Part shown: positions 48,453 through 61,869 of the stretch, piece after piece
Position numbering within the stretch: the first letter of the stretch is position 1
Layout: the number at the start of each line of letters is the position of its first letter
Assembly (NCBI RefSeq): GCF_002896875.1
Contig: NZ_CP023278.1
Location: forward strand, 3,162,001-3,226,000
Reading direction: 5' to 3'
Length of the DNA stretch: 64,000 bases
From: Nostoc sp. CENA543
Lineage (GTDB): Bacteria > Cyanobacteriota > Cyanobacteriia > Cyanobacteriales > Nostocaceae
Translations under genes and position numbers: made by a program
Notes under the pieces: model-generated
Told to the model about the DNA's origin: nothing
Databases searched by the model: none
The model's input: only the letters and a program-made list of their open reading frames with translations

Positions 48453-49325
48453 TTATGACTTTTGCAAGAGGTGAACCCAATTATCGGGAATCCTTTCTAA
48501 AAGTCCAGAACCAAAAACTTGATTCATATTTAAGTAATCAAGATGGACATAACCAATGTGACAATGACAAGTTTGGTTAGGACATGGTTGGTCGGATAAG
48601 GCTGTTTCCCAATCAGAATCATAAATATTACCAATTGGAGATTTAATAAAATGACAACGGCGTATTGTCCCATCGCCATCAACAGAAACTACTGATTTTC
48701 CAGCCCGACAAGAATGCCCAAAGCTAGGATAATGTTTGGTATTTAATTCATATAATGGGTCGATAGATTGGAAAAATTCTCTATCTGCTGGTGATAAATT
48801 GGGAAGTTCAGCTTTGACAGCATTAATCCACAAATAAACATGGTTTGGTAATTCTTGACGTAAGGCGGCTATTTCTGATTTAAACTTGGGAAAACCGACA
48901 ACTCCGACGCTAAATTTAACATTTTGGTGGTTTAATTGAAGACATTTAGATAAAAAGCGATCGCGTGATACCCATTCTGAGTGAAAAGTAGCCCAAATTG
49001 CCAATTTATCTTTGTTACATTCCTCTAACCAATCTAGCTGACAAGAGAGATTAGTTTGAATTGCGGCTTTATTAACGTTGGGTAAATGGGTTAGTTTTAT
49101 CAAGGCTTGCTGATACCAAGAATGTATTAAAGCTTCTCCCCAAGGAGTGAATAGAATTGAAAATTGATGTTGGGGATGTTGAGAAATCCAATTGACAAAC
49201 TTTTCTAAAGATTGTTTATCTATAGCTAATTCTGCGGCTGTTTGTTGGCGTTTAGCAAAGGGACAATATTCACAACCGTAGTTGCAACTAATTAAAGAAC
49301 CGCGATAAAGTATGGTGAAGTACAT
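48453..49325 (-). CDS. STM4011-type radical SAM protein
   Basis: The 290-residue protein has a radical SAM cluster motif near its start (CNYGCEYCPFAKR, CxxxCxxC), the FTPWGEALIHSW segment after it, and further cysteines near the C terminus (HSCRAGKSVVSVDGDGTIRRC, then CPNQTCHCHIG) that could bind an auxiliary iron-sulphur cluster. I recognise it as the STM4011 family, named after a Salmonella gene and found next to STM4012-STM4015 homologues; all five types are here. The reaction is unknown. It is the last gene of the minus-strand cassette, 53 bases after the STM4015 copy. The start is the ATG at 49325. Confidence 0.87.
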   Translation of the reverse strand: MYFTILYRGSLISCNYGCEYCPFAKRQQTAAELAIDKQSLEKFVNWISQHPQHQFSILFTPWGEALIHSWYQQALIKLTHLPNVNKAAIQTNLSCQLDWLEECNKDKLAIWATFHSEWVSRDRFLSKCLQLNHQNVKFSVGVVGFPKFKSEIAALRQELPNHVYLWINAVKAELPNLSPADREFFQSIDPLYELNTKHYPSFGHSCRAGKSVVSVDGDGTIRRCHFIKSPIGNIYDSDWETALSDQPCPNQTCHCHIGYVHLDYLNMNQVFGSGLLERIPDNWVHLLQKS

Positions 49326-49378
49326 ATTTAGCTTAGGTAGATTTCTCAGCTACTAATTTTTAATAATTATTTTTTGAA

Positions 49379-50647
49379 TTATTCGGCTACTGTGCAGTAG
49401 CGATCGCCTTCATATTCATAAAAGCGACTACCTTCTGCAATAACACGAACATCCATTTGCCAAAGCAATTCAAGCATTTCATCAGTTACATAAGTTTCTG
49501 ATATATTGAGCATGTCCAATTGATTGATTATAGGAGAATTGAGTAAGATTTCTGCTCCTTCATCGTTTAAATTTCCGAGAGAAATGTCTAACACTTGAAT
49601 TTTTTGTAAGACTGGTGTTTGAACTATTTCATGAACTATCGCATTAGTATATTCACTATTGCGTAGCCCTAAATATATAAGATTAGGGAATAAATCCCCA
49701 TAAAGAAGAGGAATTAAATCTTCAACAGAACAAGTGCATCCATAGTTAAGGCTACCCAACCATATTTCCAGATGTTCTAATGCTGGTAATTGAAGAGAGT
49801 ACAATTGTAATAGAGATTCTTGCCGTAGTCCTCCTGTTTCTATAATCAGAGCTTTTAATTTCTCATGTCGTATTGGATTGAACATCCTATGAGTATTACC
49901 ACCACGAATCTTTAATATTTCTAAATTAGGGTAAGCTTCTAATACTGGACTGATATAGTTATGGCTCATTTGAGAAATCATCGACTCATTATCTGTGACA
50001 TCGCCTATGAATACAGCCTTGAGATTAGTTAACTGATCCTGAGAGTTCACAAGAAAATTCACAATATTTTGTGATGAATCACTTTCAAAAACATCTGAAT
50101 GCCACATTCCAAAAACTAAAGCTTCTACCTTGCAAACCTGTGGATCTTCTAAAAGTAATGCAAGCTTATCTGCAATAAAATCGTCTCCATCTCGATCAGT
50201 TCGGAAAGCGTATGCAGTTCCTATAGGGTCAGTTATACCAACCTGTGGATCGTACTCCTCTACTTTACGATTTGCAAATTTTTTAGAGTGCCATCTTATG
50301 ATAGTCGATCCTATACGTTTCTCTAGCTCCCAGCGTTCTTTTAAAAACCAAGGTTTATAACTTTGTAAAGCTGCTATAGCTTGAGGTTCGTTTCTTTCAC
50401 TTAGTAAAACACAAGCATATCTTCGTAGCCTTCCTGATTTATCTTGTAAAGCTTGAATTATCAAATCTAGACCTGATTCACCATATTGAAGTGCATCCTG
50501 AAGTGCGTCTTCTCTATCTTCTATAAATTGGCTCGATAAACGTCTTTTAATCCCTTCGATACCACCTAATACAGCGTTATAAATAGGTGGTGTTTGTCCG
50601 CCAAGTACTGCATCAAATTCTCTCGGTTCATTTTGATTGTTTGTCAT
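49379..50647 (-). CDS. STM4015-type leucine-rich-repeat protein, copy 2
   Basis: The 422-residue protein has an N-terminal module (about 1-120) with two VLGG motifs (FDAVLGGQTPP and YNAVLGGIEGIKRRLS) and HEAT-like helices (ALQDALQYGESGLDLIIQAL). A leucine-rich part follows (ALVFGMW, NLKAVFIGDV, YPNLEILKIRGG, ALEHLEIWLG, IQVLDISLGNLNDEGAE) and the tail is RYCTVAE. It is a paralogue of the protein at 54696-55952 and aligns from its first residue (MTNNQN), which sets the start at 50647 rather than 50671. The segment SQMSHNYISPVLEAYP has drifted from the paralogue. Function is unknown. Confidence 0.87.
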   Translation of the reverse strand: MTNNQNEPREFDAVLGGQTPPIYNAVLGGIEGIKRRLSSQFIEDREDALQDALQYGESGLDLIIQALQDKSGRLRRYACVLLSERNEPQAIAALQSYKPWFLKERWELEKRIGSTIIRWHSKKFANRKVEEYDPQVGITDPIGTAYAFRTDRDGDDFIADKLALLLEDPQVCKVEALVFGMWHSDVFESDSSQNIVNFLVNSQDQLTNLKAVFIGDVTDNESMISQMSHNYISPVLEAYPNLEILKIRGGNTHRMFNPIRHEKLKALIIETGGLRQESLLQLYSLQLPALEHLEIWLGSLNYGCTCSVEDLIPLLYGDLFPNLIYLGLRNSEYTNAIVHEIVQTPVLQKIQVLDISLGNLNDEGAEILLNSPIINQLDMLNISETYVTDEMLELLWQMDVRVIAEGSRFYEYEGDRYCTVAE

Positions 50648-50728
50648 ATTTTCTCCCACGGTAGATGTCATGTAAATTTTTGTAGTAAAGTGATTTATCG
50701 CTTCTCTACCAATCAGGTTTAAACTCTA

Positions 50729-52159
50729 CTATTTCAACTCATAATCCTGCATTAATTCCTGAACTTGCTCAGAAAATAACCACGCGCCAATAGTATCAGA
50801 ACGTTCAATGCCAAATTCAGTTAAGTGTAAACTTTCTTCATCTTTTATCGCCAAATTTAAAGTTAGCAATTCTGAAATTTCTGGAAAATCAGCGTCAACT
50901 TCACTACTAAATCGCTGGCGATAATTAACGAAATTTAATCCTTCATCAGAAAGTAAAGATAATAAAATATATCGCCTACGTTGTTCTTCTGCATTTAGTT
51001 GAAAGCCGTAATGCGTGTATTCAAATAACTCATCGGCTGTTTGAATATATGCTTGCAAAATATCACGAATTCCCTTTGCTCCCACCGCATATTCGTTAGA
51101 GTAGTGCAGAGTATTGGTGTAGGAACGTGCGCCGCAACCTAAACCAACCATACCGTCGGCTTGACAGCAGTAGACGGGGGAGGGGGAGGGGAAAGTGTGG
51201 GGAGTGTGGGGAGACGAGGGAGGAGGGGGAGACAGGGTAGAAAAATTGCTACCTTGTCCACCTTGTCCCCCTTGTCCACCTTGTCGAAACATCCGCATCG
51301 ATACTTGAGTATAACCTTGAGATAATAGGAGCGATCGCCCTTCGCGGTAACAAGCTAAACGAATATCGTCCCATTCTTTATCTGTGCGTCCCAAACCTGT
51401 TAACGGCCGTACATATAAGGGATATAGATAAATTTCTTCTGGTTGAAAGCGCAAGGCAGTTTGTATTGATTGCAACCAAGTATCGACGGTTTGACTGGGT
51501 AAACCGTAAATCAAATCAATATTCAAAGTGGGAAATCCAGCTTCTTTTATCCTTGTCAATGCTGCTTCTACTTGAGTATTAGATTGACGACGCTGGGTTG
51601 CTAAGACTTCCGACTCGATGAAACTTTGGACACCAATACTAACACGGTCAACGGAGTGCGATCGCAAAACTTTTAACTTTTCTTCAGTTGCGGTTTCTGG
51701 TGAGACTTCCACAGAAATGGGAATTTCCCGTAACTTTGCACCCATTGTATTTTCCGCAATATCGAGAACAGTTGCGAGATGCTGAATGGGTAACTGAGTC
51801 GGAGTTCCCCCACCAATAGCGAACCTTGCAAATGACGCATCACCCAACACCGCTTTCATCCGTTGCGCCTGTCGTTGTAATGTGCGGACATATTGACTGA
51901 TAAAATCTTCATTGTGGCTGACTGTGGTAAACAAATTGCAGAAACCACAACGCATTTCACAAAACGGTATATGTATATAAAGAAATAACGCTTGTCTATC
52001 TTGCTGCGTCCAAAGTTCGGGGAGATATATCGGTGGGTTGAAAGGACGATAAGCTGTTTTGTGGGGATAAGAATAAACGTATGCTTGATAGGGAGACTGG
52101 GCAATTTTTGATTTTAGATTTTGGATTTTAGATTGAGGATTTTGGGTTTTAATCATCAT
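50729..52159 (-). CDS. STM4012-type radical SAM protein (HemN-like)
   Basis: The 476-residue protein has a HemN-like radical SAM core: YIHIPFCEMRCGFCNLFTTV with the CxxxCxxC motif, then GGGTPTQLP, SVEVSPETATEEKL and IYGLPSQTVDTWL. The cassette-specific start SPYQAYVYSYPHKTAYRPF precedes it. It is not coproporphyrinogen oxidase by context; the STM4012 family is of unknown function. The first 18 residues are encoded by AATCTAAAATC intergenic repeat. Residues about 291-330 (FRQGGQGGQGGQGSNFSTL, then Pro/Ser/His-rich) come from an in-frame insertion of GACAAGG and GGGGAG repeats (51175-51290). Confidence 0.87.
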   Translation of the reverse strand: MMIKTQNPQSKIQNLKSKIAQSPYQAYVYSYPHKTAYRPFNPPIYLPELWTQQDRQALFLYIHIPFCEMRCGFCNLFTTVSHNEDFISQYVRTLQRQAQRMKAVLGDASFARFAIGGGTPTQLPIQHLATVLDIAENTMGAKLREIPISVEVSPETATEEKLKVLRSHSVDRVSIGVQSFIESEVLATQRRQSNTQVEAALTRIKEAGFPTLNIDLIYGLPSQTVDTWLQSIQTALRFQPEEIYLYPLYVRPLTGLGRTDKEWDDIRLACYREGRSLLLSQGYTQVSMRMFRQGGQGGQGGQGSNFSTLSPPPPSSPHTPHTFPSPSPVYCCQADGMVGLGCGARSYTNTLHYSNEYAVGAKGIRDILQAYIQTADELFEYTHYGFQLNAEEQRRRYILLSLLSDEGLNFVNYRQRFSSEVDADFPEISELLTLNLAIKDEESLHLTEFGIERSDTIGAWLFSEQVQELMQDYELK

Positions 52160-52174
52160 AAATTTTCCAGGTTT

Positions 52175-52975
52175 TTATAAAATAAACTCTGTATATGGAA
52201 CAGTCCAAATAACAGGATGGCTGAGTCGATGTCCAGTGTAACCATCTTCACCATAAGTTGTCCCGTGGTCGGAACAGAGAATGCAAAATGTAGAATGTCT
52301 TTGGCGTATAATATTCCAGAGTTTAGCTAATTGACTATCTACATATTCCAAAGCTGCGGCGTGAGATTCAATGGTGTCGGTTTTATCCTTAGTATTGGGA
52401 AGATAAAAATAATTTGGCTGATGCAAAGCGGAAATATTTATAAATAAAAATAGGCGTTGATAATTTGGCGTTTTTTCTAAAATCTCTTGCGCCAGATTTA
52501 CCTGATTTTCTGTAGATTTGGGGTGAGTAACACCTAACTCTGGACTCCAGTAACTTTCAGCAAACATCCCAGGAATGACATTACCTAAAGGATTGCGTTT
52601 GTTAAAAAAACCTACGCCACCAATGCAAACGGTATGATATCCCTTAGCAGCTAATCCACTAACAATATTTGAGCCATCTAATACACAAGTTTTATCAGTT
52701 GTGGTGGTACTTCCTTCAAATCCTAATGCAAAAATTCGGGGATGAATTCCTGGCGTTATTGGAGTAGGTAAAAAGCCAGCGAAAAAAGCATGATGCGCCG
52801 CGTAAGTGAAATTTCCTGGTGAATGTCGTTCTTCCCAACCTGTTTTGGGTAGAACTTTTGCTAAATTAGGAGTCCGTTTTTCAAGCAGTAATTTTTTAGC
52901 TACATCGTAACGCAGTGTATCTAGAGTAATAAATAAAATATCTTGATTTCCTACGATTTGATTCATGTTGAACAT
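52175..52975 (-). CDS. STM4013-type alkaline-phosphatase-superfamily hydrolase
   Basis: The 266-residue protein has the metal site of the alkaline phosphatase/sulfatase superfamily: ILFITLDTLRYDV at the N terminus, with Asp and the nucleophile Thr, HSPGNFTYAAHHAFFAG, and CSDHGTTYGEDGYTGHRLSHP near the C terminus with the Asp/His ligands. It fits the STM4013/SEN3800 family found with STM4012. The substrate is unknown. The start at 52975 (MFNMNQIVGNQD) or 52966 is chosen; an extension to 53227 would run into the GACAAGG repeat and the opposite-strand pseudogene. It lies 15 bases before the STM4012-type gene. Confidence 0.85.
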   Translation of the reverse strand: MFNMNQIVGNQDILFITLDTLRYDVAKKLLLEKRTPNLAKVLPKTGWEERHSPGNFTYAAHHAFFAGFLPTPITPGIHPRIFALGFEGSTTTTDKTCVLDGSNIVSGLAAKGYHTVCIGGVGFFNKRNPLGNVIPGMFAESYWSPELGVTHPKSTENQVNLAQEILEKTPNYQRLFLFINISALHQPNYFYLPNTKDKTDTIESHAAALEYVDSQLAKLWNIIRQRHSTFCILCSDHGTTYGEDGYTGHRLSHPVIWTVPYTEFIL

Positions 52976-52987
52976 AGTTAGGGGGTG

Positions 52988-53040
52988 AGGGGATGAGGGG
53001 ACAAGGGGGACAAGGGGGACAAGGTGGAGTAAAATCAATA
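52988..53040 (+). repeat. GACAAGG heptamer array (left flank of inserted pseudogene)
   Basis: Units GGGACAAGG/GGGGGACAAGG repeat about four times on the plus strand. The mirror array on the other side of the pseudogene (53472-53540) reads CCTTGTC on the plus strand, so the two are inverted. Confidence 0.75.
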
Positions 53041-53085
53041 AAAAAATGGGAAATATAAGAGGAGAGAGTAAAGGGTGTTTGATTT

Positions 53086-53472
53086 GTGAATCAAACGTCA
53101 TTCTATAGTCATGAAGATTTGATTGTATTTCAGTTGGCGTTTGAAACAGCAATGACAATTTTTGAAATGTCGCAAAAATTTCCTCAAGAAGAAAAATATT
53201 CTTTAACGGATCAGATTCGTCGTTCATCTCGTTCTGTTTGCGCTAATTTAGCAGAGGCTTGGAGAAAATGAAGATATAAAGCTGCTTTTATTGCTAAACT
53301 TAGTGATTGTGAAGCTGAAGCTGCTGAAACTCAAGTATGGATTAAATTTGCTGTTAAATGTTCCTACATAGATATTCAGCAAGGTAGAGAATTATATAAA
53401 AACTACAATCAAGTCCTTAAAGGCTTAGTCAAAATGATTAACAATCCAAATCAATGGATTATCGGCAAATAA
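53086..53472 (+). pseudogene. Four-helix-bundle protein (23S rRNA IVP family), interrupted by a stop codon
   Basis: The frame starts MNQTSFYSHEDLIVFQLAFE and continues through LTDQIRRSSRSVCANLAEAW, typical of the small four-helix-bundle proteins first found as 23S rRNA intervening-sequence proteins. At 53269-53271 a TGA interrupts the frame just after AEAWRK. The same frame then resumes with RYKAAFIAKLSDCEAEAAET and runs to a TAA at 53470-53472. One C-to-T change in a CGA arginine codon explains the break. It lies antisense inside the STM cassette, bracketed by inverted GACAAGG arrays, and overlaps the 3' end of the ATP-grasp gene. Confidence 0.85.
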
Positions 53473-54664
53473 TCCCCCTTCCTTTCTCTACCTTGTCCCC
53501 CTTGTCTCCCTTGTCTCCCTTGTCTCCCTCGTCCCTTCCCAAAACAGCCTTAACTTCACTCGTGTAAGTATCCATTTCATTCCACAAAATGCCAGGTAAT
53601 AAATCGCCAAAAGCATTAATCTCTAAAATCGCATGAGTTTTCCAATCTGGTAAAATTAGTAAATCAACTCCGCAATATAAACTATCAGGAAATAACGCTG
53701 CTGCTTGTTCACAGGTTCGCTTCATCATCTCCCAATTTTCAACACCAACTTTTGCTAAAAATTCCTCTGTATCTCCCCGTTCATTTCCTAAATGTAAATT
53801 TGTCATCGGACTTTTACCCAGGCGAACAACTATATGTTGTGCTTCGCCATTAATCACTACCACACGCACATCAAAACCACATCCTTTTAAATGTGCTTTG
53901 GGTAGCCATTCTTCAACTTGTACGCCTTCTGCTGTCAAGATGTTGATGATATCGGCGATTTCTTCACGGCGAGTATAGTGACTAATTTTCCGGGAGTTGT
54001 AAAGTAGAGTTTCGCCATTTTCTCGCACTCTTTCCACAGTGGTAATTGCTGATTCAAAACGGGAATTTACACGATAAGCAACGACTCCAGAAGCGGCGGA
54101 ACCGTGGGAAAGTTTGACAAATACTCGTTCTATTCCCTGGGTTTGCATTTGTTCGCGCAAATATTCATAATTGTGAATTTTTCCTAGAGAACGAGGAACG
54201 GGTATATTGTTACGGCTGAATCTTTCGTGACAAGCTGGTTTGTCAAACATCACTGCGATGTCTTGGGGATGGTTCATAAACTCACCCTGGAGGGGAGTAA
54301 GTTGAGATTCCCATTTTTGCAGGAGATATCGCCAGCCTAAATACCACTGTCGCGGGTAGAGGATGCGTCCTTTGTCGAATTCTAATTCCATAGCTTCGCC
54401 AGGACTGATGCGTTGATGTTGTCCGTTATCTGATACATTGAAACCTGCAGCGATGATGGCTTTATCGATATCAAAGTTTTTCTCAGGAGAATCGAAGCGG
54501 ATAATGGTATTGGGTGCGTTGAATTGTGCCAGGCTTTGTTTACCTGAGATTAAATCTGCGTAATCTATTACGGTGGCTGGTGGTAAGTTGAAATGAGTTA
54601 GTGCTTGTTGGAGGAAACCGACACGGCGATTTTCAGGGTTGGCGATGAGGATAAATTTGAGCAT
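53459..54664 (-). CDS. STM4014-type ATP-grasp protein
   Basis: The 401-residue protein has a Rossmann-like N terminus (LKFILIANPENRRVGFLQQA) and an ATP-grasp fold: VFVKLSHGSAASGVVAY, VQVEEWLPK, DVRVVVINGEAQHIVVR and LEINAFGDLLPGIL. The last two carry the Asp/Arg and Glu/Asn residues expected at the metal-ATP site. ATP-grasp enzymes form amide or peptide bonds through acyl-phosphates, so a ligase role is likely but the substrates are unknown. The C terminus EGDKGDKGDKGDKVEKG is encoded by GACAAGG repeat, so the natural end may be shorter. The start is the ATG at 54664. It follows the STM4015 copy 1 gene by 31 bases. Confidence 0.85.
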   Translation of the reverse strand: MLKFILIANPENRRVGFLQQALTHFNLPPATVIDYADLISGKQSLAQFNAPNTIIRFDSPEKNFDIDKAIIAAGFNVSDNGQHQRISPGEAMELEFDKGRILYPRQWYLGWRYLLQKWESQLTPLQGEFMNHPQDIAVMFDKPACHERFSRNNIPVPRSLGKIHNYEYLREQMQTQGIERVFVKLSHGSAASGVVAYRVNSRFESAITTVERVRENGETLLYNSRKISHYTRREEIADIINILTAEGVQVEEWLPKAHLKGCGFDVRVVVINGEAQHIVVRLGKSPMTNLHLGNERGDTEEFLAKVGVENWEMMKRTCEQAAALFPDSLYCGVDLLILPDWKTHAILEINAFGDLLPGILWNEMDTYTSEVKAVLGRDEGDKGDKGDKGDKVEKGRGIICR

Positions 54665-54695
54665 TTTCTGATATGTACAATGCACCCTTAATAAA

Positions 54696-55952
54696 TTACT
54701 CAGCTACAGAACAATAGCGGCTGTGAATATAGCTATCATCCTCTTCTTCTTTCTGGTTATTTGCTATGACACGCACATCCAAACCTGATAATTTCTCAAC
54801 CATTTCCTCAGATAAAAAGTTTTCCGAGACGTTGAGAATATCTAGATAATTAATTGCCTCACAATTAAGTAATTCTTCCGCACCTACATCACTTAAAGTT
54901 CCCAGTGAAAGGTCAAGAACGCTGATAGAATTAAGAATTGGGGAAGTTACAATCACACTAGCTATTTCATCACTAAATTGACTATTACATAATCCTAAAT
55001 AAGTTAAGTTAGGAAACTTGTCTGCAAAAATAATTGGGTGTATATCTTCAACCCAACAGGTTCCGCCATAATCTTCACAGCCAAACCATAATTCTAAATG
55101 TTCTAATGCTGGCAGATTTAAATTACAAATCTGTGCGACGGTATCCCGACTTAATCCCCCAGTTTCTACAATTAAAGCTTTGAGGTGATTATGTTTTATT
55201 GGTGGACTAAATTGTAATCCTTCACCGCCACGAACTTGTAAAATTTCTAGCTGAGGATATGCTTGTAAAATAGGACTAATATCACTTTGTTGAATCCAGG
55301 AAATTTCACATTCTTCACTCAGAATATCGCCCAGAAAAATAGCCTTAAGGTTAGGTAAATATTGCTTGACATTAACTAAAGCTTGGATAATTAAACTTGC
55401 ATTGTTTTCATAAGTTTCTGTCCATAAACCTAATACTAAAGCTTCCAATTTTTCGGCGTTGGGTGCTTGAGCAAGTTTACTAAGTTTATCTGCTAAATCC
55501 TCTTCATAGTCATCATAAGTACATCGTAGGGCATAAGCTTGATTAACAGGTTCAACAATACCTCTATTTGCATTAAATTCCACCACTTGCCGATTAGCAA
55601 ATTGAGCGGTATGACAACCTAAATACCGAGTCAATCTTTCTTCCAATTGCCAAGGTTTATATATTTGCAAAGCTTGTTTAACTTGCGATTCTGTTCTTGG
55701 CTTTAATAGTCGATAAGCAAAACGTTCTACTAATCTTGATTCATCTTGCAAACCTTGAATTAAAACATCCAACCCAGCGTCACCATATTTCAAAGCTTCG
55801 CTCAGTGCTGCTATTCGCACATTCACCACAGGATTTGATAAACAACGCTTAATTCCCTCAATTCCTCCCAGCACAACCCCATCTATAGGCGGTGGTGATT
55901 GTCCTCCCAATACAGCATCATAATCCTGGGGTTGATTTTGATTGTTAGTCAT
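54696..55952 (-). CDS. STM4015-type leucine-rich-repeat protein, copy 1
   Basis: The 418-residue protein is the first gene of the cassette. Its N-terminal module (about 1-125) has YDAVLGGQSPPP, VVLGGIEGIKRCLS and HEAT-like helices (LIQGLQDESRLVERFAYRLL). From about residue 130 it matches the STM4015 family closely: ALVLGLWTETYENNASLII, AIFLGDI, ECEISWIQQSDISPILQAYP, LEHLELWFG. It ends RYCSVAE. The N-terminal module is an addition relative to the STM4015 proteins I recall from other phyla. It may be a scaffold or a substrate for the enzymes encoded next to it; this is inferred. The start is the ATG at 55952. Confidence 0.88.
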   Translation of the reverse strand: MTNNQNQPQDYDAVLGGQSPPPIDGVVLGGIEGIKRCLSNPVVNVRIAALSEALKYGDAGLDVLIQGLQDESRLVERFAYRLLKPRTESQVKQALQIYKPWQLEERLTRYLGCHTAQFANRQVVEFNANRGIVEPVNQAYALRCTYDDYEEDLADKLSKLAQAPNAEKLEALVLGLWTETYENNASLIIQALVNVKQYLPNLKAIFLGDILSEECEISWIQQSDISPILQAYPQLEILQVRGGEGLQFSPPIKHNHLKALIVETGGLSRDTVAQICNLNLPALEHLELWFGCEDYGGTCWVEDIHPIIFADKFPNLTYLGLCNSQFSDEIASVIVTSPILNSISVLDLSLGTLSDVGAEELLNCEAINYLDILNVSENFLSEEMVEKLSGLDVRVIANNQKEEEDDSYIHSRYCSVAE

Positions 55953-56238: not shown

Positions 56239-56451
56239 ATGGCTGAGTATCAAAAAATTGAGTATCGCATTGATAAAGATGGCAAAATTACGGAAACAGT
56301 AATTGGTGCTACTGGTGCAAGTTGTACGAGTACAACATCGGGAATTGAAGATGCTTTAGGAGAGGTAGAAACTCAAGAACTGCTTCCTGACTATTACGAA
56401 GGAGAAGAAAACGTCACAGGAACAGAACAACAGTCTCTCAAGCAAAAATAG
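56239..56451 (+). CDS. DUF2997 family small protein
   Basis: The 70-residue protein begins KIEYRIDKDGKITETVIG and continues GATGASCTSTTSGIEDALGE, which fits DUF2997. The usual pattern is an IEYRI-DG-V-E start, a conserved Cys and an LG-V motif. Members are commonly encoded near DUF1257 (Ycf35) and Ycf46-type ATPases; both are present here at 59569 and 59997. The function is unknown. The gene starts the plus-strand cluster, and the GrpE-like gene follows after 11 bases. Confidence 0.85.
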   Translation: MAEYQKIEYRIDKDGKITETVIGATGASCTSTTSGIEDALGEVETQELLPDYYEGEENVTGTEQQSLKQK

Positions 56452-56462
56452 GAGAGATATCA

Positions 56463-57107
56463 ATGTTTGCAGACATCCTATCAGATATTCAGGGTGTAGG
56501 AATGTTTTCTTGGGAAAGCTTTGTAGTGATAGGGATTGGTATTTTCGTACTGTTATTGGTGATTCCGAACATTAGCAACGGGACAGGTTTAAAATTCGGT
56601 AAGCGTACCGATAAATCAAAGCAAATTCAATTACTAGAAGACGAGATCCAATTATCTCATCAAAAACACTTAGAATTAGAGCAAAAAATACAGCAACTTA
56701 TCTCAGAAAAAGCTGCACTGCATCAAGAAGGTGTGCGACTCCATAAAGAGTTACAACAGCAACGTCTACAACTAACAGAAGAATTTCGGACTGCCACATT
56801 TGAGCAATTGCAGACATTGCTGACAAACTATCCCAGCATTCACCAGATGGTAACTATCAAGCCAGATTTGCCCATGAAAAATCTGCTTTCCATGTTTACC
56901 CCTCTAGATAACCTCCTTGGTAAATGGGGTTACGAACTCATCGGTAAACCTTGGGAACAAGTACCTTATAACTCCCAACTTCATCAACCAGACAATGCTG
57001 ATATGACGGAAGGTGAATTGGTTTACATCCGATTTGTCGGTTATCAGCATCAAGGGAGAATTCTTTGCCCTGCTAAGGTGAGTCGGACTTTGCCGGGGGG
57101 GAAGTGA
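56463..57107 (+). CDS. Membrane-anchored GrpE-like protein
   Basis: The 214-residue protein has an N-terminal membrane helix (SFVVIGIGIFVLLLVIPNI, about residues 19-37), a long coiled coil (about 50-105; IQLLEDEIQLSHQKHLELE) and a C-terminal beta domain (GELVYIRFVGYQHQGRILCP followed by AKVSRTLP). The coiled coil plus beta head matches GrpE nucleotide exchange factors, but the membrane anchor and sequence differ from canonical GrpE. An Hsp70-like gene follows after 66 bases, supporting a dedicated exchange factor. A GACAAGG repeat lies between the two genes. Confidence 0.78.
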   Translation: MFADILSDIQGVGMFSWESFVVIGIGIFVLLLVIPNISNGTGLKFGKRTDKSKQIQLLEDEIQLSHQKHLELEQKIQQLISEKAALHQEGVRLHKELQQQRLQLTEEFRTATFEQLQTLLTNYPSIHQMVTIKPDLPMKNLLSMFTPLDNLLGKWGYELIGKPWEQVPYNSQLHQPDNADMTEGELVYIRFVGYQHQGRILCPAKVSRTLPGGK

Positions 57108-57173
57108 GGGACGAGAGAGACAAGGGGACAAGGTAGACAAGGTAGATAAATCTGTAACAATGCCTAATAACTA

Positions 57174-58733
57174 ATGACTACAGTAATAATTGATTTTGGT
57201 ACGAGTAATACTGTTGTTTGTACCACAGACTTGATTACGCAAAAGCCTCGGACTTTGCGATTTGAGGGGATGTCGCGGCGGTTTGAGGTGGGAACGGAAC
57301 AGGTAAGTGTTGTACCAAGTTTGGTGTTTGTTGAAGGACAAAATAATATTTTGTTTGGTGAAGCTGTACGCGCTAAACGCTTGGGGTTTGCCCAGCCGGA
57401 ACGCTGTTTTCGGGCTTTTAAACGGGATTTAGCGGCGGATTTTGTACCGCCTCCGCGACTGTTGGATGGGAATAGTTATAGTGCAGAGATTATTTCAGAA
57501 CTGTTTTTGAGGGAAATTTGGCAGCAAGTTGAACAGCAATTGCAACCAAGTCACGTTATCTTTACCGTTCCTGTAGGTGCGTTTGAAAGGTATCTTGACT
57601 GGTTTCGGGATTTGGGCGATAAACTCAATATGCCCACAGTGCAAATTGTGGATGAATCAACAGCCGCCGCCCTTGGTTATGCCGTCAAGCGTCCTGCTAG
57701 TGTGGTTTTGGTGGTGGATTTTGGTGGCGGAACTCTGGATTTAAGTTTAGTGCGGACTGTGAGTGTAGCAGCCGAACAGCAAGCTATACGCGCGGAAGTT
57801 CTCGCCAAGTCCGATGCTTTTATTGGCGGTGTCGATATTGATACTTGGATTGTAGAACATTATTTACACAAAATCGGTTCTTCCCGTGAGGAAGTCGGAG
57901 AAATCGGTTTTATGAATTTATTGGAAGTAGCAGAAAGGGTGAAAATTCAACTTTCGACAACAGATTTAGCCAAGGAAGCTTGGTTTGATGATGAAAATTT
58001 CATGTCTCATGAATTGCAGTTACATCGAGACGAGTTAGGGGAAATTTTAGAAAATCAACAATTATTAGAACAGTTAAGACAAGCCATTGATGAAGTATTA
58101 GCGATCGCACTTACTAAAGGTATCAGTAAATCATCCATAGAACAAGTGTTACTCGTCGGCGGTACTTGTCAAATCCCTGCGATTCAACAATTAGTAATTT
58201 CTTATTTTGGTAGACAAAAAGTCAAGTTAGATAAACCCTTTGAAGCTGTCGCACATGGCGCATTAGCATTAAGCGAAATGACAGCCATTGATGATTATCT
58301 CCGCCACAGTTACGCGATTCGCCTTTGGGAACCCCACAGCAAAACTTATTCTTATTTCACCTTAATTGAAAAAGGAGCAAAATATCCAGGGGCGCGTTCG
58401 GAAGCTTTAACTTTGCAAGTAGCTACTGAAGGACAGCGAGAAATTCGCCTTGACATCGGTGAAGTAGCCGAAGTTTCCCAAGCGGAAGTTGCTTATGATG
58501 AACAAGGCAGAATGACGAGTAGTCACTTAATAAAACAAGATAGCTATCGTTCTTTAGAAACCCATCATCAACAAGTATGTGTCGCTTATCTTGAACCACC
58601 AGGACAAACCGGAATCGACAGAATTCTAGCACAATTTGAAGTTAACGAACAACGGGTATTAGTAGTAACAGTCAAAGATTTATTGACAGGAAAAATGTTA
58701 GTAAATAGAGGTGCGATCGCTAAACTCAAATAA
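57174..58733 (+). CDS. Divergent Hsp70-family protein
   Basis: The 519-residue protein has the Hsp70/actin ATPase signatures: IIDFGTSNTVVCTTD at the N terminus, VQIVDESTAAALGYAVK, VVDFGGGTLDLSLVR and QVLLVGGTCQIPAIQQL. After about residue 370 a beta-rich region (SYAIRLWEPHSKTYSYFTLI and later GQREIRLDIGEVAEV) corresponds to a short substrate-binding part. The helical lid of DnaK is missing. With its GrpE-like neighbour it looks like a specialised chaperone with a narrow client range; no DnaJ partner is seen in the window. The start is the ATG at 57174. Confidence 0.87.
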   Translation: MTTVIIDFGTSNTVVCTTDLITQKPRTLRFEGMSRRFEVGTEQVSVVPSLVFVEGQNNILFGEAVRAKRLGFAQPERCFRAFKRDLAADFVPPPRLLDGNSYSAEIISELFLREIWQQVEQQLQPSHVIFTVPVGAFERYLDWFRDLGDKLNMPTVQIVDESTAAALGYAVKRPASVVLVVDFGGGTLDLSLVRTVSVAAEQQAIRAEVLAKSDAFIGGVDIDTWIVEHYLHKIGSSREEVGEIGFMNLLEVAERVKIQLSTTDLAKEAWFDDENFMSHELQLHRDELGEILENQQLLEQLRQAIDEVLAIALTKGISKSSIEQVLLVGGTCQIPAIQQLVISYFGRQKVKLDKPFEAVAHGALALSEMTAIDDYLRHSYAIRLWEPHSKTYSYFTLIEKGAKYPGARSEALTLQVATEGQREIRLDIGEVAEVSQAEVAYDEQGRMTSSHLIKQDSYRSLETHHQQVCVAYLEPPGQTGIDRILAQFEVNEQRVLVVTVKDLLTGKMLVNRGAIAKLK

Positions 58734-58797
58734 TCATGCGATCGCCTAACCTTAGTTATGGGGAATACTAAGTAGTAGGCTTGATACGAAAAACCTG

Positions 58798-59400
58798 ATG
58801 CAAGAAAATTATAATCGCCCCAGAGTATATGATGTTGTGCTTGGTGGTCAAGAAAAAGCCCCTCCTGGTGCTTTAGTTTTAGGAGGACTAGAAGGTGTTA
58901 AAAGACGCTTGGCACATCCAATAATTGAACAAAGAATTGCAGCACTAGAAGAAGCACTCAAGTATGGCGAAGTCGGTTTAGAACTGGTAATCTGGGCGTT
59001 AGATGATAAATTATGGAAAGTACGCCAAGCAGCTTATTCGCTATTAGCTTCTCGACCAGAACCTATAGTACAAGAAATACTACAAGAATATAGCCATAAA
59101 GTTGATAGATATGATGCTTTTGTGGCGATGGCGCGTACTGGTAGCGTGTCTGATATTGATACACTAATGGATAATTTAGAACATGATCGTAGTAGCGCAA
59201 CCTGTAAGTTAATTGACTTTACACTTGGCTTAGTTGATAGTCATGAGGGTAAAGATAGAATCCGACATTACCTGTTCAACGGTACGCAGATACAGCGTAA
59301 CTATGCAGCACTTTACTTTAAACGGCGGGGTATTACAGATATTTTACGAGAAGCAGTCAGGCAAGGCTGCATTGATAGAGTACAAGCATTTTCTAAATGA
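58798..59400 (+). CDS. HEAT-like protein with the VLGGQ module
   Basis: The 200-residue protein begins with the same module as the two STM4015-type proteins: YDVVLGGQEKAPPGALVLGG and then LEGVKRRLAHPIIEQRIAAL with EALKYGEVGLELVIWALDD. HEAT-like helical pairs continue to the end (VRQAAYSLLASRPEPIVQEI), but no leucine-rich region or RYCxVAE tail is present. It lies 64 bases after the Hsp70-like gene, so it may be a client or adaptor of that chaperone. The start is the ATG at 58798. A short ORF in another frame at its 3' end is not supported. Confidence 0.8.
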   Translation: MQENYNRPRVYDVVLGGQEKAPPGALVLGGLEGVKRRLAHPIIEQRIAALEEALKYGEVGLELVIWALDDKLWKVRQAAYSLLASRPEPIVQEILQEYSHKVDRYDAFVAMARTGSVSDIDTLMDNLEHDRSSATCKLIDFTLGLVDSHEGKDRIRHYLFNGTQIQRNYAALYFKRRGITDILREAVRQGCIDRVQAFSK

Positions 59401-59518
59401 AAATCATACTTCAAGTATGGTTACTAGCTCAGATGTACAGAGTATTCTTAGTGAAGTTAAGAAATTAATTCCAGCATAGCCAGTTATATAGAATACTAAA
59501 TAATAAGATAAGGACTCA

Positions 59519-59549
59519 GATCACCGACTTCTTAAAGAAGTCGGTGATC
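59519..59549. terminator. Perfect 15-bp palindrome, probable bidirectional terminator
   Basis: GATCACCGACTTCTT and AAGAAGTCGGTGATC pair exactly around a single central base. The hairpin lies between the convergent HEAT-like and Ycf35 genes. A related hairpin occurs at 33820-33848, so it is also a dispersed repeat. Confidence 0.75.
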
Positions 59550-59568
59550 TTGATGCTCATGAATATAA

Positions 59569-59943
59569 TTACACCCAACGCCCGACAACTACCCGCACAG
59601 TTCCATCTGCTAATACTTCTTCATCTTCAACATTAAAACCTTGTTCTTGCACTGTTGCCATCAAGGTTTTATAAGCATATTTGTGGCTAATTGAGTTAAC
59701 AAATTGTTGTTGATTAATTTTTGCACCCCAAAAGTCGGCTACTATCTCGTAATTTTCCCCACTGCGGCGAAAGCCCAAATCATAACCGTTTTGTTGGCGA
59801 ATTACATACTCGGCTTGAGTGGTATTTCCTTGATATCCCCGGACATTCGTATTGCACTCAACTTGATAGCCTAATTCTTGCAAAACTTCATGGAGAATTT
59901 CACCGCGTTTGATTTGTACTTTGATGGTTGTGAAATGAGACAT
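59569..59943 (-). CDS. DUF1257 protein (Ycf35-like)
   Basis: The 124-residue protein starts MSHFTTIKVQIKRGEILHEV and includes LGYQVECNTNVRGYQG, YDLGFRRSGENYEIVADFWG and a C-terminal DGTVRVVVGRWV. This is the DUF1257/Ycf35 pattern, kept in red-algal plastids and cyanobacteria, with unknown biochemical role. It precisely fits the DUF2997-DUF1257-Ycf46 gene association. It lies 53 bases after the AAA ATPase gene on the same strand. The start is the ATG at 59943. Confidence 0.88.
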   Translation of the reverse strand: MSHFTTIKVQIKRGEILHEVLQELGYQVECNTNVRGYQGNTTQAEYVIRQQNGYDLGFRRSGENYEIVADFWGAKINQQQFVNSISHKYAYKTLMATVQEQGFNVEDEEVLADGTVRVVVGRWV

Positions 59944-59996
59944 AATTAATTTTATGTTTGAGATTTTGAAGTAAAAAAACCGCAGATTTTTCTATT

Positions 59997-61637
59997 TTAA
60001 TCAACCTCTAATGGGCCTATGCCTTTTTGGTTTGAGTATTGTTTTAATTCCTCCACTAATTGAATATCGTTGGAAGCCGCCCTGGCACCGGCTTCTGCTG
60101 CCCATTGTTTTAAGGCTTCGATTTGGTTACGGGCGATCGCAGCTAAGGGTACAGTCTGCACTATTGCCTGTAAAATATCTTCTGTATTGAAGTCTCGCCG
60201 TTGTCCTTCTATTCTTGTGGAAAATGCTTGGTGCATAGCATCAATAATTACTTGCTCAATTTCTGCCCCACTGAAGTTTTGTGTTTGCTTCGCCAAGGAT
60301 GCTAAATTAAATTCCCGCAGGCGGTTGGGACGTAACCTCTGCAAATGCACTTTAAAAATCTCTTGGCGTTCTGTTTCTGTCGGTAAATTTAAAAAGAAAA
60401 TCTCATCAAATCTGCCTTTACGTAACAACTCGGCTGGTAATATCTGCACATTATTGGCAGTAGCAACAATAAAAACTGGGCTGGTTTTCTCCTGCATCCA
60501 GGTAATTAAACTGCCAAATACCCGCCGCGATGTCCCGGAATCCCCATCAACACCACTGGTAATATTGCCAAAGGCTTTGTCAATTTCATCAATCCACAAC
60601 ACACAAGGTGCCATTGCTTCGGTGATCTGAATCATTTGGCGGACACGGCTTTCACTTTCACCGACAATTCCACCAAATAACCGCCCAGAATCTAACCTTA
60701 GTAGCGGTAAACGCCATTCATGGGCAATAGTTTTCGCGGAAAGAGATTTACCCGTTCCCTGTATCCCCACCAATAACATCCCTTTAGGATTAGGAATACC
60801 GTAGCGTCTAGCTTCTTCTGTAAAAGCATCTTGGCGCATCAATACCCATTGTTTGAGTTGATCTAATCCCCCAACGCGCTTGAGTGATTCTTGGGGTGTG
60901 AAAAACTCTAAAATCCCAGTTTGACGAATTGCTTGTTTTTTCTCTTCTAATACACCATCAATATCAGACTCATTTACCTGCTGTTTGGCGGCTAACGCTT
61001 TTGCCAAAACTCTAGAAATGCGAGTGCGGCTTAAACCTTGACAAGCTTTAATTAATTGTTCTCGCGCCAAGCCAGCAATATTTAATTTATCTGGGACGAC
61101 TAACTGGGTAATTAAATAATCAATTTCGCTGACGCTGGGTAGAGGAAAATCAACCACTGTCACTTCTTGCAATAGTTCATCGGGCAGTTCTAAAGTATGA
61201 CTGGTAGTGATGATAGTTTTACGCGATCGCTTTAACTCTCGTGCTAAGTTGCGTAATTCCCTGACAATCGGTGCATTCTTCTCGGTGGTAGGATTTTTCA
61301 CAAACGGATGCAAATCCCGCAGCACAAACATCGCAGCTGTTTGCGAGTCAGCTTTGGCAATGCGTAATAAAGCCGCCATCACAGAACCTTTATCTGCACC
61401 ATTATCACTCCAACCCCGCACAATATCCCAAAATAACACCTGTCGTTGGGGCGCAGAACGCGCTGCAACTTGCAACAGCACTTCCTCTACAGGTTCTTCT
61501 TCCACAGAAATCACATACAGTAAGGGATACCGCGCCCGAATCATCAAATCAAGTTGTTCTATTAAGGAGACGTATTGCTGATTCTCTCGGCTATGAGTTG
61601 AATCTCCTTTTCCATTAAGGGGTGCGCCAGCCGTCAT
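59997..61637 (-). CDS. Ycf46-type AAA ATPase
   Basis: The 546-residue protein has an N-terminal degenerate P-loop-like region (about 30-230; LIEQLDLMIRARYPLLYVIS) and a C-terminal AAA module with Walker A GIQGTGKSLSAKTIAHEW, Walker B CVLWIDEIDKAFG and the arginine-finger region LRKGRFDEIFFLNLPT. Ycf46 proteins occur in cyanobacteria and some plastids; a Synechocystis homologue has been linked to regulation of photosynthesis and carbon uptake (recalled). The ATG at 61637 gives the usual start region; reading from 61748 adds 37 residues without support. Ycf35 follows on the same strand. Confidence 0.88.
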   Translation of the reverse strand: MTAGAPLNGKGDSTHSRENQQYVSLIEQLDLMIRARYPLLYVISVEEEPVEEVLLQVAARSAPQRQVLFWDIVRGWSDNGADKGSVMAALLRIAKADSQTAAMFVLRDLHPFVKNPTTEKNAPIVRELRNLARELKRSRKTIITTSHTLELPDELLQEVTVVDFPLPSVSEIDYLITQLVVPDKLNIAGLAREQLIKACQGLSRTRISRVLAKALAAKQQVNESDIDGVLEEKKQAIRQTGILEFFTPQESLKRVGGLDQLKQWVLMRQDAFTEEARRYGIPNPKGMLLVGIQGTGKSLSAKTIAHEWRLPLLRLDSGRLFGGIVGESESRVRQMIQITEAMAPCVLWIDEIDKAFGNITSGVDGDSGTSRRVFGSLITWMQEKTSPVFIVATANNVQILPAELLRKGRFDEIFFLNLPTETERQEIFKVHLQRLRPNRLREFNLASLAKQTQNFSGAEIEQVIIDAMHQAFSTRIEGQRRDFNTEDILQAIVQTVPLAAIARNQIEALKQWAAEAGARAASNDIQLVEELKQYSNQKGIGPLEVD

Positions 61638-61869
61638 AAGTAAGCCTTTATCCCTCAGTGATTTAGTTGTCTTATTTAATACTGTAATTCCTTTTTTTCT
61701 AAAGTAGTACAAATTCACTAAAACAATAACTGAAGCAGGCAATCCCAATAAACTCCTAAGAAACGCATTTTTCTTCCCTTATACCCCTACACCCCTATAC
61801 CCCTGTCTTGAGAGTAAACAAGCAGTGAAGGGCATTTGAGTAATTGTTGGAAATTTTATTTGACGAATC

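Follow-up and report, generated by a model that had tools for sequence, protein, structure and literature searches.

A near-invariant C-terminal glutamate in STM4015 proteins suggests a working site for the enzymes of the STM4011-STM4015 cassette

The ATP-grasp ligases LysX and ArgX join an amino acid to the C-terminal glutamate of the carrier protein LysW. LysX does so at the gamma-carboxyl group, at the end of the motif EDWGE, and replacement of the C-terminal glutamate by alanine in a haloarchaeal carrier results in arginine auxotrophy (available portions of PMC10433800). The five protein families STM4011 to STM4015, which also include an ATP-grasp protein, are named in NCBIfam but are not discussed in the open-access literature searched (subscription papers were outside its scope), where mentions consist of single Salmonella genes in table rows. 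Here we analyze a cassette of these families in a stretch of 64,000 nucleotides from Nostoc sp. CENA543 (NZ_CP023278.1, positions 3,162,001-3,226,000), hereafter the window, in whose positions all coordinates are given. The cassette had been proposed in an earlier reading of the same DNA (the original prediction) and is a slightly unusual member of a known association of unknown function. What is new is a conserved tail that ends STM4015 in glutamate. Together with the kinship of STM4014 to ligases acting on terminal glutamates, this suggests by analogy that the tail is the enzymes' working site.

The comparison covers 94 loci, namely the window and loci L010-L102. GTDB contigs were scanned with an alignment of STM4013, yielding at least 592 stretches, of which at least 575 are relatives. 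Loci L023-L102 are the 80 best of these, a choice that leaves divergent members under-sampled. In 72 of the 94 loci, far beyond chance, each of the five families is present as a gene of its own, which upholds the proposal that they form a co-conserved set, and each of the four enzymes is single-copy in all 72. Tail statistics were compiled from 128 STM4015 open reading frames (ORFs) of at least 150 bits. Four hits under 150 bits were excluded: two carry the tail, one in L093 ends in glutamate without it, and one in L082, a poor ORF, does not end in glutamate.

An exact C-terminal glutamate is present in 124 of the 128 STM4015 copies, usually in a tail of the form R-[YF]-x-x-[VIL]-x-E that follows an acidic linker. 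The entropy of the last residue is 0.26 bits for STM4015, compared with 3.51 for STM4011, 1.62 for STM4012, 3.27 for STM4013 and 3.36 for STM4014. As background, C-terminal glutamate occurs in 7 of 342 STM4011-STM4014 ORFs and 182 of 6334 other ORFs. The four copies lacking the residue (in L010, L027, L029 and L036) are extra copies whose loci also hold glutamate-ended ones, and at least one glutamate-ended STM4015 is found in all 72 five-gene loci. Among the 124 glutamate-ended copies the consensus is R-Y-x-x-V-x-E, with arginine in 111 and valine in 102; position -6 is Tyr in 109, Phe in 10, Ser in 4 and Asn in 1. The pattern R[YF]xx[VIL]xE is matched by 103 of the 124, and positions -8 to -14 are variable. 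The 14 residues upstream of the tail are 40% Asp/Glu, versus 16% overall (61 aligned copies). The glutamate is stricter than any other tail residue: STM4015 of Salmonella (ending MYTE) and Bacteroides (ending MITE) lack most of the motif and keep it. Its codon (GAG in 78 copies, GAA in 46) precedes all three stops (TGA 64, TAA 32, TAG 28), so overlap with the start of the next gene does not force the final glutamate, and an artefact of this kind is ruled out.

A further test of the tail drew on the 13 loci without an STM4015 of 150 bits. The genomes of 12 (all but L057) were searched and 20 loci were fetched. All 12 distinct STM4015 proteins above 200 bits, one of them a previously cut fragment in L032, end in R-Y-x-x-[VI]-x-E, and the motif is present in none of nine weaker leucine-rich repeat (LRR) proteins, one of which, inside the L093 cassette, may be a diverged STM4015. 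Across the genome of the window the tail pattern, searched with CGN arginine codons only, has three matches: the two STM4015 genes of the window (STM4015a and STM4015b) and one with an in-frame stop. Only two of 6681 non-STM4015 ORFs carry the strict tail. One, a pentapeptide-repeat protein of 159 aa, is the immediate neighbour of STM4015 in L030, and its tail again follows an acidic linker; the other, in L043, looks like a chance match.

The second line of evidence comes from STM4014. The protein has the ATP-grasp fold and the RimK-like motifs D-x-R, NLH, G-x-D and E-x-N, and the solved sequences nearest to its profile are RimK and LysX (E about 1e-4). Its structural model (mean predicted local distance difference test, pLDDT, 92.3) best matches ArgX bound to LysW, with a template modelling (TM) score of 0.53 over the query and 14% identity, followed in the PDB by PsnB with its precursor and then RimK. 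Ligation to a protein's C-terminal glutamate is proposed for STM4014 on the strength of this analogy. Distances between STM4015 proteins correlate best with those of STM4014 (0.81, versus 0.64-0.76 for the others, over 72 loci), which fits contact between the two, if weakly.

The other three enzymes appear to keep the motifs expected of their families. In STM4011, eight cysteines are invariant over 32 sequences (C14, C18, C21, C206, C224, C248, C253, C255), and SkfB is the sole solved chain at E <= 0.01 (E 0.003). The SPASM motif consists of CxxxCxxC plus CX9-15GX4C and further cysteines; STM4011 has CxxxCxxC and CX12GX4C, with the last three cysteines spaced differently, and scores under the Pfam cut-offs for SPASM (14.5 vs 21.5) and Radical_SAM (16 vs 29.5). 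The solved chains nearest to STM4012 are HemN (1olt) and the methyltransferase NocN, and for STM4013 a phosphodiesterase-nucleotide pyrophosphatase, with sulfatases also near. Residues D15, T53, D232 and H233 of STM4013 are invariant over 11 sequences, T53 aligning in the FTYAAH / LTFPNH stretch of the 2gsn phosphodiesterase; we take them to be the metal ligands and nucleophile position of the alkaline phosphatase superfamily. A role in defence was considered and set aside: PADLOC returns weak radical SAM matches only (PDC-M51A to STM4012, E 7e-12; viperin to STM4011, E 2e-4). Separately, STM4012 shows a weaker end preference of its own, with Lys or Arg as the last residue of 75 of 83 ORFs in the window and L010-L102.

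STM4015 had been described as a non-enzymatic repeat protein, which fits both its LRR fold and a solved relative, PDB 2RA8 (Bacteroides fragilis Q64V53; E = 7e-70 to the family profile). The model of STM4015 (mean pLDDT 87) shows a confident LRR body and a low-confidence C-terminal end, and the tail is probably flexible. Where 2RA8 matches Bacteroides STM4015, the alignment closes with ...YPMITE at residue 354, and the 8 residues that follow this glutamate in the chain are probably a tag. The N-terminal modules vary. A WGR module is present in 7 of 8 non-cyanobacterial proteins scanned (Bacteroides, Planctomycetota, Myxococcota), and a YDAVLGG-HEAT module in many cyanobacteria. At E <= 0.01 the latter domain is found in only three proteins of the window's genome, all at this locus: both STM4015 and the HEAT protein at 58798-59400. 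Two genomes of the same genus have STM4015 without it. The simplest reading is that the extension was captured from the adjoining HEAT gene, its likely source. Within the cassette STM4015 is conserved least: its mean identity is 0.45, and that of the enzymes ranges from 0.47 to 0.66 (best-scoring copy per locus); between the window and L023 it is 79% identical, and the enzymes 88-96%. As a side observation, the YDAVLGG domain is fused in related cyanobacterial cassettes to proteins that are WD40-like by sequence, and to an SMI1/KNR4 protein (L023:4568-5776, L024:2476-3705, L025:3296-4504, L024:7248-7976).

The usual cassette order is STM4015-4014-4013-4012-4011, and the enzymes lie on one strand in the order 4014-4013-4012-4011 in 65 of the 72 five-gene loci. 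Two further loci hold all five families with two enzymes fused in one ORF, STM4014-STM4013 in Embleya (L021:8983-11118) and STM4012-STM4011 in Actinomadura sp. J1-007 (L077:8126-11023), hinting that the enzymes are physical partners. Among the remaining 20 loci are truncated contigs, Myxococcus loci whose STM4015 lies outside the stretch that was fetched, and loci in which STM4013 occurs with only part of the set. STM4013 stands without the full set in L045, L051, L052 and L053. One of these four genomes has STM4015 elsewhere; no STM4015 match was found in the genomes of L045, L052 and L053, where STM4013-like hydrolases occur outside the cassette. Cassette loci span at least 11 phyla, comprising the nine groups of the STM4012 tree, Deinococcota and Bacillota. 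A search of plasmids with STM4014 matched 13 records, nine of which were examined for cassette content. Five separate genes are found on plasmids of Deinococcus (2), Paenibacillus, Methylobacterium, Salmonella and Streptomyces (2), an Embleya plasmid has the five families with STM4014 and STM4013 joined in one ORF, and a Calothrix plasmid, a tenth record, has a lone STM4015 carrying the tail. In a phage library, tblastn with STM4012 hit 37 records; among the matches listed, the best two are Salmonella-labelled, going by their labels only.

Two features that had seemed noteworthy, the duplicated STM4015 and the presence of the cassette in a cyanobacterium, turned out to be ordinary, since multi-copy loci are frequent and the cyanobacterial rows of the STM4012 tree form one supported group. 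STM4015 is present in one copy in 45 of the five-gene loci, two in 20, three in 2 and four in 5, so that 27 of 72 have two to four. Relatives L010, L023, L024 and L025 have four copies each, and L010, L023, L024 and L027 share with the window a second STM4015 between STM4012 and STM4011. The window copy of STM4012 sits within the cyanobacterial group beside that of Nostoc linckia z4, and a recent transfer into this genome is not supported. STM4015 occurs in 4 of 146 sampled cyanobacterial genomes, the window's included, indicating that the cassette is patchy in cyanobacteria.

The suggestion that STM4015 is a scaffold or substrate is supported and can be sharpened to its C-terminal glutamate tail as the likely site. 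Our proposal, which we judge to have an even chance of being right, is that STM4015 is a protein substrate, or carrier, rather than just a scaffold, and that the terminal glutamate is where the cassette enzymes work. For the acceptor and the substrate, the succession of steps and the product's fate, we infer the following. The LRR body of STM4015 would present a flexible acidic arm ending in the near-invariant glutamate. STM4014 would activate a carboxylate of this residue and join an amine to it, probably an amino acid or small amine. The SPASM-like STM4011 and the HemN-like STM4012 could then modify the tail or the group joined to it, with STM4013 perhaps removing or transferring a phosphoryl or sulfuryl group. 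The finished group would stay on STM4015 as a built-in prosthetic group or, alternatively, be released as a small molecule. We favour the former, given a fixed tail on scaffolds that occur in several copies, evolve fast and can be exchanged. A broader version of the proposal is more tentative, and we would sooner expect it to fail than to hold: that a widespread, hitherto unrecognised protein-borne chemistry spans at least 11 bacterial phyla, in which an ATP-grasp ligase, a phosphatase-type hydrolase and two radical SAM enzymes build a prosthetic group on the C-terminal glutamate of solenoids (LRR and, at least once, pentapeptide repeats) with exchangeable N-terminal modules. Should the terminal glutamate of STM4015 prove to be modified, the cassette would represent a new pathway for a protein-borne cofactor or carrier, extending from cyanobacteria and Streptomyces to enterobacteria.

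Several observations weigh against this proposal. The structural match of STM4014 is broad, with D-Ala-D-Ala ligases, DcsG and MdnC among the top 50 of 386 matches (E <= 0.001). The further tail test is not fully independent, given that the STM4015 search profiles include the tail, and four of its nine weaker LRR proteins end in glutamate without the motif. A Bacteroides plasmid stretch retains the final glutamate of STM4015 with no STM4012 and a short STM4013 match only. The sample is biased, Actinomycetota accounting for 38 of the 72 rows of the STM4012 tree and Streptomyces for 24 of these. There is no peptidase among the five families, which would leave release of a small product unexplained (the flanks were not surveyed systematically). 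Finally, a docking motif would be an equally good reading of a conserved C-terminus that stays free.

This last point underlies the strongest alternative, in which the tail, its carboxylate left free, serves for docking or recognition, STM4015 acts as an adaptor that brings the enzymes or a target together, and the true substrate of the cassette is a different molecule. Conserved C-terminal motifs are often docking sites, STM4015 is an LRR protein, and its exchangeable WGR or HEAT modules could bind targets. Even so, we consider docking a doubtful explanation, for it does not account for a ligase of the kind that acts on terminal glutamates, nor for a glutamate more strictly conserved than the rest of the tail. 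An improbable alternative is that R-Y-x-x-V-x-E is the core of a ribosomally synthesized and post-translationally modified peptide (RiPP) behind a very large leader, cross-linked by the SPASM-like radical SAM enzyme, closed as a lactam or lactone with the glutamate by the ATP-grasp enzyme, and freed by a host peptidase. The SPASM-like cysteines of STM4011 and its one solved match SkfB, the rank of the graspetide ligase PsnB directly under ArgX for STM4014, and the precursor-like multiplicity of STM4015 would suit such a system. Yet the five families include no protease or exporter (the flanks not having been surveyed systematically), the tail has no invariant hydroxyl or amine donor (see the residues at position -6), and a leader of 250-400 aa would, to our knowledge, be exceptional for a RiPP. 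It is very improbable that the cassette belongs to a haem or tetrapyrrole pathway, with STM4012 acting like HemW or HemN and the others in haem handling: STM4012 does match HemW and HemN models at lower scores and has HemN as its nearest solved relative, but HemN relatives include methyltransferases such as NocN and the other four families contain no haem pointer.

Table 1. Positions of the cassette genes and associated features in the window.
Feature	Position	Strand	Evidence
STM4011 radical SAM protein, 290 aa	48453..49325	-	NF038073 414 bits; CxxxCxxC + five more invariant Cys (SPASM-like)
STM4015b, 422 aa from internal ATG (ORF open to 50671)	49379..50647	-	NF038076 246 bits; YDAVLGG/HEAT N-terminus, LRR, acidic linker, tail RYCTVAE
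Tail codons R-Y-C-T-V-A-E of STM4015b	49382..49402	-	Tail conservation; genome-wide tail pattern
STM4012 radical SAM protein, HemN/HemW-like, 476 aa	50729..52159	-	NF006067 611 bits
STM4013 alkaline-phosphatase-superfamily hydrolase, start corrected	52175..52975	-	NF038075 429 bits from ORF residue 88
Insertion between STM4013 and STM4014: four-helix-bundle ORF and short GGGGACAAG-type repeats	52976..53458	.	TIGR02436 51 bits; repeats
STM4014 ATP-grasp ligase, RimK/LysX type (predicted), 401 aa	53459..54664	-	NF038074 438 bits; profile matches RimK/LysX; model pLDDT 92.3
STM4015a, 418 aa, first cassette gene	54696..55952	-	NF038076 308 bits; model mean pLDDT 87, both ends low confidence
Tail codons R-Y-C-S-V-A-E of STM4015a	54699..54719	-	Tail conservation; genome-wide tail pattern
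YDAVLGG..VLGG + HEAT extension of STM4015a, residues 1 to about 115	55608..55952	-	Domain comparison
HEAT protein sharing STM4015 N-terminal domain	58798..59400	+	Match in genome at E <= 0.01

The six minus-strand ORFs originally placed at 48453-55952 were confirmed (Table 1). Searches with the NCBIfam models matched all five families, bearing out the predicted cassette, with all genes but STM4015b over their curated cut-offs (in brackets): 414 (200) bits for STM4011, 611 (380) for STM4012, 429 (250) for STM4013 and 438 (175) for STM4014. STM4015a passes with 308 bits against a cut-off of 275; STM4015b (ORF 49379-50671) falls under it with 246 bits (E = 4e-73), aligning over 254 model positions with its tail intact. 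The STM4013 ORF (350 aa) is over-long. The model begins at its residue 88, placing the start near 52975, not 53227, and the 84 residues upstream fall in the insertion, partly antisense to the TIGR02436 ORF at 53086-53271 on the plus strand. For STM4014, the ATG at 54664 is a more likely start than the GTG at 54685. After these corrections the intergenic gaps are about 31, 483 (the insertion), 15, 57 (or 81 with an STM4015b start at 50647) and 53 bases. The four-helix-bundle ORF (TIGR02436) in the insertion has a stop after 61 codons. Tandem repeats of the GGGGACAAG type lie within 52976-53533, and similar repeats lengthen the STM4014 C-terminus. Within STM4012, a 9-base repeat at 51251-51285 encodes a Gly/Gln-rich stretch, followed by a Pro/Ser-rich one.

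Beside the cassette, a divergent block at 56239-61748 encodes DUF2997, a weakly GrpE-like protein, an Hsp70-like protein, the HEAT protein and, as judged from sequence, an apparent AAA ATPase. DUF2997 also lies beside the first STM4015 in L010, L023, L024 and L025. A second gene pair adjoins the cassette in 42 of the 94 loci (L013:13131-14452, L019:6127-7749, L020:5366-6830 and 39 more), consisting of a His-rich protein of about 100 aa and a DUF6745 protein. The former carries GEVTGHxH..HEEH..QREYxP and ends in Asp in 42 of 42 cases; the latter ends in Y-x-P-x-x-[EQ]-[TA]. Of its 43 ORFs, which include one fragment, 42 have the Tyr and Pro and 40 the Thr. The pair resembles a further scaffold whose C-terminus is fixed. 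The genome of the window has two such pairs elsewhere (L106, L107), and DUF6745 is not named in the open-access papers searched.

Compared with the STM4011-STM4015 cassette defined in NCBIfam, the window has all five families in the usual order and adds a diverged STM4015b between STM4012 and STM4011, a cyanobacterial N-terminal extension and the insertion between STM4013 and STM4014. PDB 2RA8, deposited as uncharacterized, is a member of the STM4015 family with a WGR instead of a HEAT N-terminus. Graspetides have a short precursor with donor/acceptor pairs, whereas STM4015 is a folded LRR protein without an invariant donor in its tail; the available parts of a graspetide survey (PMC8939145) and of a paper on the CDC123 ATP-grasp family (PMC4431377) make no mention of leucine-rich or LRR proteins. 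In the PEARL (peptide aminoacyl-tRNA ligase) systems TglA and AmmA, an amino acid is added to the C-terminus of a ribosomal scaffold and modified there, followed in the case of TglA by release (available parts of PMC9016710; abstracts for AmmA). As far as these sources go, PEARLs use aminoacyl-tRNA and short peptide scaffolds, unlike the STM4015 cassette. RimK, which acts at the C-terminus of ribosomal protein S6, is an ATP-grasp near-relative of STM4014. STM4014 differs from it in the protein proposed as substrate, in lying within a cassette and in having radical SAM enzymes as partners. In the LysW/LysX and ArgW/ArgX systems the carrier LysW is a small zinc-binding protein with Cys ligands and an EDWGE end, whereas STM4015, at roughly 250-450 aa, has an LRR fold and ends in RYxxVxE. 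Its cassette partners comprise a phosphatase-type hydrolase and radical SAM enzymes, and no product is known for the cassette. What these systems share with STM4014 and STM4015, on the available text of PMC10433800, is the ligase fold with its motifs and the invariant final glutamate of the carrier.

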